Shown here: one piece after another, positions 55,487-59,518 of the stretch
Layout: every line of letters starts with the position of its first letter
Position numbering within the stretch: position 1 is the stretch's first letter
Assembly (NCBI GenBank): GCA_009773565.1
Contig: WSXY01000002.1
Coordinates: forward strand, 292,463 to 356,462
DNA length: 64,000 bases
Source: Actinomycetota bacterium
Lineage (GTDB): Bacteria; Actinomycetota; Coriobacteriia; Anaerosomatales; Anaerosomataceae
Direction of reading: 5' to 3'
Notes under the pieces: generated by a model
What the model saw: only the letters and a program-made list of their open reading frames with translations
Told to the model about the DNA's origin: nothing
The model's database searches: none
Position numbers and translations under genes: made by a program

Positions 55487-56329
55487 ATGCACTTGAGGCG
55501 GGTAGTAGCGTTAGTACTCAGCGCTGCGGTGCTGTTGTCTGTCGGAGGGTGCGGCGCCAAGAAACAGGCGACTCTCACACCGAAGATCGCCCCACCGGTG
55601 ATTGCCGCTGAAGGCGTCCTGCGTGCGGGCGTGGACCTCTCGTATCCGCCATTCGCCGGAGAGGCGGGCGGCAAGAAGGTCGGCATCGACGTTGATGTGG
55701 CCGCAGCCGTTGCCGAGCGCCTCGGTCTGCGTCTCGAGGTCGTGGACATCAAGTCTGCCGACGTTCCCGCGGCTCTGAAGGCGAAAACGATTGATATCGC
55801 GCTCGGCGCCGTACCGATCGCCGATGCGGTGCTCGCCGACGTCACCGTGGCGGGCTCGTACTTCACAGATGGTCCGGGTCTGTTCTCGATGGTTGCGAGC
55901 GGGGCTCCTGCGCCAACCATCAAGCAGGATGGACTCGCCAAACTCAGGGTCGGTGCGCAGCAGGGATCCGCCGTCTTCTGGGCTCTAGAGTCCGCATATG
56001 GCGAGGGTTTTGTCGCCGCGTCGCCGGCAGTTCGTGGGGCTTTTGAGGCGCTGAGTGCCGGGAGTCTGGACGTCGTTGCCGCCGATGCAGTCGTAGGTGC
56101 CTACCTGGCCCGCGACTTCCCGGGCGTGGCGTTCGTCGGGCAGTACGGCTCAGCCGAACCGCTCGGCGTCTTGGTGGCGAAGGATGACAGCGCCCTAGAG
56201 TCAGCGATTCGAGGAGTACTCGATGTGCTGTCTTCCGAAGGTGTGCTCGATGCGATTCGCACTAAGTGGGTAGGGGCGCTGCCGGTTCTCGAGGCAGAGG
56301 CATCCGGGGACACATCCACGACTCCGTAG
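55487..56329 (+). CDS. Amino-acid-type solute-binding lipoprotein, normal domain order
   Basis: The 280-residue protein has a lipoprotein signal (LLSVGGC, Cys22) and then the usual type II binding fold (AGVDLSYPPFAGE at about 47-60). The lobe-2 acidic residue is in VVAADAVVGAYL. The usual TxxR carboxylate-binding motif is replaced by PIADAVLADV (about 110-119), so a standard alpha-amino-acid ligand is doubtful. ATG 55487 follows GGAAGG. It lies directly after the structured RNA and ends in its own terminator. Confidence 0.85.
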   Translation: MHLRRVVALVLSAAVLLSVGGCGAKKQATLTPKIAPPVIAAEGVLRAGVDLSYPPFAGEAGGKKVGIDVDVAAAVAERLGLRLEVVDIKSADVPAALKAKTIDIALGAVPIADAVLADVTVAGSYFTDGPGLFSMVASGAPAPTIKQDGLAKLRVGAQQGSAVFWALESAYGEGFVAASPAVRGAFEALSAGSLDVVAADAVVGAYLARDFPGVAFVGQYGSAEPLGVLVAKDDSALESAIRGVLDVLSSEGVLDAIRTKWVGALPVLEAEASGDTSTTP

Positions 56330-56456: not shown

Positions 56457-56520
56457 TATGCACCGTGGGTTGGATAAGCGCCACCTGGCGCTTGGAATAT
56501 CAGCATCTGAAGGAGGTTCC

Positions 56521-57396
56521 ATGAGCAAGACCGGCAAGATTTTCGCGCTCCTCATGGTCTTCGCGCTCCTCGTCAGCGCACTTGCGCTCGGCGGTTGTGC
56601 GAAGAAGGACGAGGGAACAGGCACCACGCCGCCCCCGGCCGAGAAAGTCGGAATCAAGAGTGTTGACGACCTCAAGAAGGGCGACAAAGTCGCCGTTCAG
56701 TCCGGTACGACCGGTGAGGGTTGGGCGAAAGAGAATCTTGAGCCCAAGGGCATCGTTGTTGTTCCTTACGACGACGTGCTGCTTGCCTTCTCGGCCCTTC
56801 AGGCCGGCGACGTCCTCGGCGTCATCAACGACCTGCCGATTTCGCAGGACGTTGTGAAGGATCAGACCCGTGGTCTCGAGATCGTTCAGGAGATCACCAC
56901 CAACGAGGCGTACGGCTTCGCGTTCAGCAAGAAGAACACGGTTCTGCGCGACTCCGTTAACTGGGCGCTCGCGGAAGTCATCAAGGATGGTTCTTACAAC
57001 ACGATCTACGCCAAGTGGTTCGGTTCTGAGCCCATGTCAATGCCCAAGGCTGTCAGCGGCATCACCGCCAAGCCCGCGGGTGAGCTCAAGACTCTTACCG
57101 CCGGCAAGATCATCCTCGGCTCCGACACTGCCTACCCGCCGTTCGAGAACGTCGAGGGTGGAGCAACGGTCGGCTTTGACGTCGATCTCATGGCTGCAAT
57201 CGCGGCCAAGCTCGGTCTGACGTCTGAGTTCAAGAGCTACAAGTTCGACGCTCTCATCACCGGCGTTCAGGCCGGCAGCGAGTTCGACATGGTCGCATCT
57301 GCCATGACGATCACCGATGAGCGCAAGCAGTCGATCGACTTCTCGGATCCTTACATCAACTCGAACCAGTCACTTGCGGTCAAAAAGGCTCAGTAG
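56521..57396 (+). CDS. Circularly permuted amino-acid-binding lipoprotein
   Basis: The 291-residue protein has a lipoprotein signal (LALGGC, Cys26). Residues 43-168 match the second half of a HisJ/GlnH-type binding protein: DLKKGDKVAVQSGTTGEG, VINDLPIS and YGFAFSKKN, ending IYAKWFG. Residues 190-289 match the first half: ILGSDTAYPPFE, TVGFDVDLMAAIAAKLG, AMTITDERKQ and SIDFSDPY. The order is thus swapped, with a linker at 169-189. Ligand residues are kept (Thr63-64, Asp104, Tyr205, Arg268), so a functional amino-acid binder is likely. The ATG follows AAGGAGG. Confidence 0.92.
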   Translation: MSKTGKIFALLMVFALLVSALALGGCAKKDEGTGTTPPPAEKVGIKSVDDLKKGDKVAVQSGTTGEGWAKENLEPKGIVVVPYDDVLLAFSALQAGDVLGVINDLPISQDVVKDQTRGLEIVQEITTNEAYGFAFSKKNTVLRDSVNWALAEVIKDGSYNTIYAKWFGSEPMSMPKAVSGITAKPAGELKTLTAGKIILGSDTAYPPFENVEGGATVGFDVDLMAAIAAKLGLTSEFKSYKFDALITGVQAGSEFDMVASAMTITDERKQSIDFSDPYINSNQSLAVKKAQ

Positions 57397-57421: not shown

Positions 57422-57448
57422 GGGGCCGGTGGCTGAGCCACCGGCCCT
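57422..57448 (+). promoter_or_regulatory. Intercistronic hairpin
   Basis: An 11-bp perfect stem (57423-57433 with 57437-57447, TGA loop) has no U run. It stands between the binding-protein and permease genes. Such hairpins often protect the upstream mRNA and lower permease output. Confidence 0.6.
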
Positions 57449-57476
57449 GATGCATTCGCTCTTCCGAGGAGGCGGC

Positions 57477-58766
57477 GTGAACTCTAAGCTTCGGAATGCT
57501 TTGTGGTATGCGGCACTCGCGATTGCCGGCGTTGTCATCGGCGCGCTGCTGCTTACCATGGTCGGGCCGGGGCGTGTCCTCTATAAGGACCCCCCACGAC
57601 GCGGAACGACCGATATCGTTGATGCCGTCTACCTCATCTCGCCCACGCGAGACACCCTTACGATCGGCAGCCGACAGGCCGACATCGTGCCCCGGAAGGC
57701 TGTCCTCGCAGACAATCTCGCCGTCACGCTGACGCGCACGCCTGCGGGCGGAGGAATGGGCAAGAGCACCTGGGCTGTCGCCGCCGAGGAAACGAGTCCG
57801 ACACCGGTGCTCCTGAACGGTGCGGTGCCCGCCGCCGGAGCCACGCTGAAAAGCGGCGATGTCCTCACCGTAGGCGGCCTCAAGATGACGTTCGATGGCG
57901 GCCGTCGGGGGCTTCTCGGCGCTGTCGACTGGTGGGAGGCGGGTAAGGTTTCCCACCTCTTCGCTTCACCACAGGTCATAGCTGAGGCCTTCCCGATCCT
58001 TCTCGCGGCGTATCCGATCTCTCTTGTCGCCGTATTCCTCTCATTCATTCTCGCGATTCCGGGCGGACTCGCCCTGGCGTTCATGAAGATGGCCAAGTCG
58101 CGCTGGTTCCGCTTTCCGGCGACAGCCTACGTGGACTTCGTCCGAGGCACGCCCATCTTCCTGCAGATTCTCCTGGTGTTCTTCGGCCTGCCGCTCATGC
58201 CGCCGTGGCAGGCGCTTGTTAGTGCGTTCCCGCAGATCAACGACGCGGGCCTGCTAGGGGTTTCTAACTCCATGTGGCTGCGAGTACTCGTCGTTCTTGC
58301 CTTCAACTCGGCAGCGTACATGGCCGAGATCTTCCGTGCCGGCATCCAGTCGATCAACAAGGGGCAGATGGAGGCCGCGCGATCGCTTGGCATGAGCACT
58401 GCGGCCGCGATGGCGTTCATCATCATCCCGCAGACCGTGCGCCGGATTCTGCCGACGATGATGTCCGAGTTCATCTTGCTCTTCAAAGACACGTCGCTCT
58501 TCGCGGCTGTCGGACTACCCGAGATCGTCATGCGTGCGAGAGAGGTCGCTTCGACCCGGCTCAACGTTTCAGGATACTTGCTCGCAGCGGTCTTCTATCT
58601 GGTCATCACGATTCCGCTAGGTCGCTTCGTCCAGCAACTGGAGAACCGGCTTGCGGCATCTGAGGGTGGTGGAGCGGCGACGTTCCACAAGAGCACCGAG
58701 GACAATCTCGAGAACGCCGCGAAGATCAAACAGGGCCTGGCAGCTCCGACCGCGGATCGGGTGTGA
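57477..58766 (+). CDS. Amino-acid ABC transporter permease with inserted FHA-like domain
   Basis: The 429-residue protein has membrane helix 1 at about 8-29. A soluble region at about 45-140 reads like an FHA domain ([11 protein letters not shown], then LLNG, then [16 protein letters not shown]). The HisM/GlnP-type permease core starts at about 165, with the EAA loop [20 protein letters not shown] (299-318). By topology the extra domain should face outside. Key FHA phosphate-binding residues look degenerate. GTG 57477 follows GAGGAGG. A 45-residue charged tail ends the protein. Confidence 0.9.
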
Positions 58767-59518
58767 TGATGATGACTTCCAACGGAAGCGAGCCGATCGT
58801 CCGCCTTCGGGGCCTCAAGAAGAACTTCGGCGAGCTTGAGGTGCTTAAGGGCGTCGACATGGACGTCAAGAAGGGCGAGGTCGTCGTCATTCTCGGTCCC
58901 TCGGGATCGGGCAAGTCGACGCTCCTGCGCTGCGTGAACCGGCTTGAAGAGCCGACGGGCGGAGAGATCTGGTTCGAGGACGTACAGGTCAACTCGCCCA
59001 AGACCAACATCAACGAGGTGCGCGAGAAGATCGGGATGGTCTTTCAGTCCTTCAACCTCTTCCCGCATCTGACCGCCAAGGGCAACGTCATGCTCGCCCA
59101 GCGCAAGGTTCTGAAGCGTTCCAAGGATGAGGCGGATCGCGTCGCGATCGAGCAACTTGAGCGCGTCGGCCTTGGTGACCGCGTCGACTACTATCCCGCG
59201 CAGCTGTCCGGTGGCCAGCAGCAACGTGTGGCAATCGCGCGCGCACTTGCGATGGACCCGCATGTCATGCTCTTTGACGAGGTCACGTCGGCGCTCGATC
59301 CCGAACTCGTTCGAGGCGTACTCGACGTCATGAAGCAGTTGGCGCTCGCCGGCATGACGATGCTCGTCGTGACGCACGAGATGGGCTTCGCGCGTGAGGT
59401 GGCAAGCCGCGCCGTCTTCATGGATGGCGGCGTTATTGTCGAGGAAGGCACGCCGGAGCAGGTCTTCGATCACCCGCGCAATGAGCGCACCAAAGACTTC
59501 CTCGGGCACATCAGTTAG
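58766..59518 (+). CDS. Amino-acid ABC transporter ATP-binding protein (GlnQ type)
   Basis: The protein of about 250 residues has Walker [10 protein letters not shown], the Q-loop [13 protein letters not shown], signature [15 protein letters not shown], Walker [13 protein letters not shown] and the switch His in VVTHEMG. Four start codons follow each other (GTG 58763, then ATG 58766, 58769 and 58772). The ATG at 58766 overlaps the permease stop (TGATG). Confidence 0.95.

Follow-up and report, generated by a model that had tools for sequence, protein, structure and literature searches.

The 64,000-nucleotide stretch of Actinomycetota DNA analysed here (the window; contig WSXY01000002.1, positions 292,463 to 356,462) raises the question of whether a solute-binding protein (SBP) of an ATP-binding cassette (ABC) importer can carry the two halves of its fold in reverse order and nevertheless be a native component of the transporter. 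The gene concerned, SBP2, occupies positions 56521..57396 of the forward strand, on which all other features of the window mentioned below also lie, and its open reading frame (ORF) translates into a circularly permuted amino-acid-binding lipoprotein of 291 residues followed by a stop codon. In SBP2 the permutation is native, the gene is intact and purifying selection acts on it; the protein very probably functions as the solute-binding lipoprotein of an ABC importer for polar amino acids, its chain having been permuted at the first crossover between the lobes. Moreover, SBP2 is an unusually recent and recurrent case of natural SBP permutation.

Reversed halves in an intact gene

SBP2 is preceded by an AGGAGG ribosome-binding site, read directly from the sequence (56511..56516), and begins with a signal peptide and the lipobox ALALGGC, also found in the sequence, with Cys26 as the lipidated residue (56521..56598). 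Placed first thereafter are residues 44-168 (56650..57024), which carry the motifs QSGTTGEG, VINDLPIS and AKWFG and represent the C-terminal half of SBP_bac_3, i.e. lobe 2, hinge 2 and the C-terminal helices of lobe 1, as judged from phmmer comparison with solved chains and from structural superposition. Residues 193-291 (57097..57393), containing SDTAYPPFE, GFDVDL, AMTITDERK and DFSDPY, are placed last and represent the N-terminal half, namely the N-terminal part of lobe 1 and hinge strand 1, according to profile and phmmer matches and to superposition. The classical chain order of HisJ and GlnH (lobe 1a, lobe 2, lobe 1b) is not followed, the halves being reversed.

Comparison with PF00497 (SBP family 3) gave an E-value of 5.8e-37 and 126.8 bits (cut-off 26.4) in two stretches, and the Pfam and NCBIfam models alike matched SBP2 in two separate stretches whose order is swapped. 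A canonical orthologue used as a control (L076) was matched by the same NCBIfam models in one continuous stretch. The halves also aligned separately to PDB chains in phmmer searches, the matches to AncQR having E-values of 7.5e-22 and 1.3e-19. The sole long single-stretch PDB match crosses the border between the tandem domains of GlnPQ (6h30), and the only plasmid match covering both halves is an annotated substrate-binding protein/permease of Enterococcus. A match to both halves, which a tandem protein can also give, is by itself no proof of permutation. SBP2, however, is not a fusion of the GlnPQ type, as its ORF holds one copy of each half, with its own ribosome-binding site, signal peptide, start and stop codon. 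Profiles, solved structures and motif order thus agree with the preliminary description, made from the letters of the sequence, that the second half precedes the first after the lipobox.

The same description regarded all usual ligand contacts as present and the gene as not decayed. The former statement holds as residue conservation in an alignment: Q60, S61, G62, T63, T64, D104, D202, F242, T263 and R268 are among the motif residues invariant across the ten rows of permuted orthologues, and by analogy with the GlnBP and HisJ structures these residues are the putative ligand contacts. A search of viral contigs for further alignment rows found nothing. The absence of decay is borne out by pairwise ratios of nonsynonymous to synonymous substitution (dN/dS) of 0.06-0.17 among permuted SBP2 orthologues and by 28 in-frame permuted proteins from all lineages, every one of which (28/28) has a lipobox ahead of the half placed first.

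Permuted SBP2 was found in 23 of the 69 genomes of the window's order (class Coriobacteriia), distributed over seven families, as well as in four lineages outside the order. The conservation of the order of halves in so many genomes excludes chance and local misassembly, and the normal order was encountered in other genomes only. The suspicion of an assembly artefact or a pseudogene might arise from the fact that the nearest titled relatives of the window are metagenome-assembled genomes (MAGs) of Coriobacteriia or Actinomycetota. Nevertheless, one of the 23 proteins of the order comes from a 100%-complete genome in a single contig (G002), and the in-frame lipobox proteins and low dN/dS described above already contradict such an explanation, the probability of which is close to nil. 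The permutation of SBP2 is not an assembly artefact.

Modelling with AlphaFold2 on an alignment that also contained canonical half-proteins as separate rows gave a model with a pLDDT of 91.8 and a pTM of 0.80. Structural comparison (VIA) superposed model residues 43-171 on residues 124-251 of GlnPQ SBD1 (1.7 Å over 126 residues) and residues 188-284 on domain 1 of TmArgBP (1.9 Å over 95 residues). The model is confident in both halves, each of which superposes on two-lobed binding proteins, and the failure to form a two-lobed fold, which would have spoken against a permuted receptor, is not what the prediction suggests. The longest sequential matches of the model are to OpuAC (201-211 residues over positions 39-291, with a root-mean-square deviation of 4.5-5.6 Å); as OpuAC is itself permuted relative to ProX (PMC2395249), these matches fit a permuted topology. 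Three points weigh against the structural argument. The ten near permuted rows alone gave a pLDDT of 64; the added half-rows inform each half and not the packing between the halves; and Foldseek returned no single match of high TM-score for the model, which is expected when a permutant is aligned sequentially.

One must also consider that the permuted chain might stay open and exchange lobe halves between two molecules at the membrane, forming a domain-swapped oligomer. Hinge strand 1 is cut in SBP2 and the linker at the joint is long, and domain swapping has been published for the dimer of the Thermotoga arginine-binding protein (PMC4022495). Such an arrangement is nonetheless improbable, given the confidence of the monomer model in both halves and the joint of more than 20 residues that the canonical tail and linker provide between the old termini.

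It is most likely that SBP2 is a normal Venus-flytrap receptor that has been rewired. Given the architecture of the type II fold, the cut at hinge 1 would leave hinge 2 as the only covalent crossover between the lobes, hinge strand 1 would become the C-terminus and dock non-covalently, and the lipid anchor would be shifted from lobe 1 to lobe 2. All permuted lineages found, those with a later cut among them (see below), have the anchor ahead of lobe-2 sequence.

In the same structural comparison the top match was PfVFT1 of Plasmodium falciparum (5jkq), residues 30-197 of which align to model residues 138-283 in the order lobe 1b-lobe 1a; judging from this alignment, PfVFT1 could be another natural permutant, with its cut at a different place.

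The internal joint and the route of permutation

The internal joint of SBP2 reads WFG-SEPMSMP-KAVSGITAKPAGELKTLTAGKI. Its first part, SEPMSMP (57025..57045), is a remnant of the canonical C-terminal tail, recognized from the ends of canonical orthologues: the nearest relatives of canonical order (families f2, f7 and f13) end in WFGAEPLSIP, WFGADPLSIP or WFGAPPLSIP immediately before the stop codon. The second part (57046..57096) resembles, in comparison with canonical orthologues, their mature N-terminal linker; after the lipobox, the canonical relatives of the three families have linkers rich in Pro, Glu and Ala that extend up to TLTEGKI or TLTPGRI. The joint therefore unites the former C-terminal tail with the former mature N-terminus, from which the signal peptide is gone, and so fits permutation by tandem duplication, a mechanism that has been reviewed (PMC3320104). 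According to this scheme, which had been proposed in the preliminary description, the SBP2 gene would have been tandemly duplicated and fused, whereupon copy 1 would have lost its first half and copy 2 its second.

The tandem two-domain protein expected in such a scheme was looked for, and a related architecture occurs in the same class. Locus L099 (3795-6824, reverse strand; family f22) encodes a protein of 1009 amino acids in which two canonical SBP domains (L1-L2-L1-L2, where L1 and L2 are the lobes) are fused to a further extracytoplasmic stretch and a permease. Intact canonical SBP copies also stand next to each other in two other loci (L014 and L163). Against the scheme speaks the lack of a half-truncated L2-L1-L2 intermediate among the loci examined. 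A canonical tail joined to a canonical linker would likewise be left by fission and fusion, in which the gene is split into separately secreted half-genes that are re-fused in reverse order, with no full tandem duplication. This alternative appears unlikely, since no split half-genes were present at any locus examined, whereas the class does contain tandem copies of intact family members, either adjacent or fused (L014, L163, L099). Duplication followed by the loss of the outer halves is the more likely route.

Recurrence of the permutation

The preliminary description dealt with a single case, which the comparison of lineages has exceeded. Outside the order, permuted SBP2 is found in genomes G382, G378, G773, G091 and G619, which make up four lineages, one of them with two genomes. 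Two cut sites are used among all permuted lineages. G382 and G619, the latter from another family of the phylum, are cut as in the window. In G378 and G773 (L101 and L177) the cut lies later by ∼28 residues, which places the first strand and helix of lobe 2 at the C-terminus, and the distant genome G091 (L102) has a similar later cut.

In maximum-likelihood trees of the rotated halves, the permuted SBP2 proteins of the order form one clade (90/75), while the other permuted forms stand among canonical relatives; G619, for example, is sister to canonical G427 (97/87) inside a group supported at 100/99. At least five changes between the permuted and canonical states are needed on these trees. Approximately unbiased (AU) tests rejected a single origin of all 27 permuted proteins (p=1.6e-9), of the order together with G619 (p=2e-52) and of the order together with G382 (p=1e-4), which argues for independent origins. 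A common origin of the members of family f25 (G382, G378 and G773) survives the test (p=0.39; p=0.08 for two of them), although these members use two cut sites. So does a common origin of G091 and the order (p=0.42), although the cut of G091 differs from that of the order and its junction resembles another paralogue (the second copy in G085).

The junction scars are specific to each lineage and agree with separate origins. The joint of G619, YFPDQEVPDYSD, may be set beside the canonical ends of G561, YFPDQELPPYASE, and G427, YFPEQDLPDYASE; the f25 joints FPGVSVPKL, FPGVSIPAL and FPDVSPPSL may be set beside the canonical f25 ends FPGVTPPSLR and FPGVTAPSLKG. Some observations call for caution: the 23-member clade has moderate support (SH-aLRT ∼90), the tree of the first half alone splits the 23 members with three changes, and the four lineages outside the order, to judge from their fragmentation, are probably represented by MAGs, three of them by one genome each. 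Taken together, the trees, AU tests and junction scars firmly support at least three independent origins of permuted SBP2, and four or five are likely.

Transport locus and biological meaning

Almost all genomes of the order share one arrangement, AEC-comF-[SBP1-SBP2-permease-ATPase]-hpf, irrespective of the form of SBP2; the names AEC, comF and hpf were assigned from translated sequences and gene order rather than by profile search. The halves of the canonical orthologue at L076 are up to 78% (first half) and 70% (second half) identical to those of the window SBP2. By these measures permuted and canonical SBP2 are a matched pair at one chromosomal address and not a remote similarity. SBP2 resides in an ABC-importer operon, followed by a PAAT-type permease (57429..58766; PF00528, TIGR01726) with an additional N-terminal transmembrane segment and extracytoplasmic domain, and by an ATPase (58763..59518) for which profile matches give GlnQ as the closest NCBIfam model. 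The refolded, two-lobed Venus flytrap would deliver a polar amino acid, the predicted ligand class, to this permease and ATPase.

The gene upstream, SBP1 (55487..56329), encodes a divergent family-3 SBP lipoprotein of canonical order according to profile matches. It is kept across the order, yet the Arg of the TDERK motif is absent (IADAVLAD) and the GTT and NDLP motifs are altered, and so SBP1 probably recognizes a different ligand or plays a part in regulation. In genome G025, permuted and canonical copies of the operon lie on separate contigs (L006 and L059); as contamination is estimated at 7%, the double operon may represent two organisms.

The N-terminal transmembrane segment and extracytoplasmic domain of the permease (57477-57950) show an FHA-like sequence pattern by eye; the domain has no match in Pfam or PDB. 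All genomes of the order in which it was detected have permuted SBP2, and several canonical lineages carry an unrelated-looking N-domain (with a DUF2808 match in L054). The idea that this domain is required for permutation was dropped, as it is absent in G060, G065 and G039, and G378, G382 and G619 have other N-termini.

When the permuted and canonical labels were mapped onto gene trees of the order, SBP1, comF and hpf each required 11 changes and the AEC gene 10, as compared with 2 for the membrane domain of the permease and 5 for the ATPase (means for shuffled labels, 13-18). The few changes on the permease tree indicate that SBP2 and the permease tend to move together, while the other genes of the locus appear from their trees to follow a different history. 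Such co-inheritance suggests functional matching; linkage in one recombination tract would produce the same pattern. It is conceivable, if rather doubtful, that the permutation is adaptive and convergent, i.e. that three to five events in Actinomycetota moved the anchor to lobe 2 and changed docking on the permease, and that the permuted protein then spread with a matching permease.

Among known systems, the closest are the HisJ/GlnH/LAO-type family-3 SBPs (cluster F, type II; GlnPQ SBD1, ArtJ), which are homologous to SBP2 in both halves and share its conserved motif residues and its PAAT permease and GlnQ-like ATPase partners. SBP2 differs from them in its reversed halves, in the anchor leading into lobe 2 and in having one predicted covalent crossover instead of two. 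GlnPQ-type SBD1-SBD2-permease fusions (6h30) contain the L2-L1 adjacency and illustrate, like L099, a possible tandem precursor, but they hold two complete canonical domains rather than one permuted domain. Natural permutants were already known in other SBP classes, which qualifies the preliminary view that a native permuted binding protein would be notable. TpMglB-2 (Tp0684) of Treponema, a glucose-binding lipoprotein of type I designated "Type Ic / cluster Bc", is likewise a native, lipid-anchored, permuted SBP of an ABC importer, and membrane anchoring was raised by its authors as a possible driver (PMC4990184). It has a sugar-binding fold of type I (cluster B) and a different cut, whereas SBP2 matches family-3 type II amino-acid SBPs. 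Furthermore, its permuted part is divergent (the last 100 residues show 13% identity; PMC4990184), whereas SBP2 has ∼70% identical canonical homologues at the same locus and its event has recurred. The glycine-betaine-binding proteins OpuAC and ProX constitute a type II circular-permutation family, but their relationship is deep (<24% identity), and neither a recent sister of canonical order nor a scar at the junction is described for them (PMC2395249). The literature covered, which lay mostly outside subscription journals, contained no report of a natural permutant from the family-3 amino-acid SBPs, of a permuted SBP with ∼70% identical canonical homologues at the same locus or of recurrence.

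In the published natural permutants, which are deep relationships, the effect of permutation is inseparable from general divergence. Between permuted and canonical SBP2 at one locus, on the other hand, the difference is as small as 22-30% per half. With such matched natural pairs one can ask if both hinges of a Venus flytrap have to be covalent, if docking depends on which lobe is anchored and through which steps permutation proceeds. Native permutants from membrane-anchored importers would also make useful scaffolds for sensors, whose permutation is at present designed. The repeated rearrangement of one protein within a phylum is a natural test of which rewiring is tolerated.
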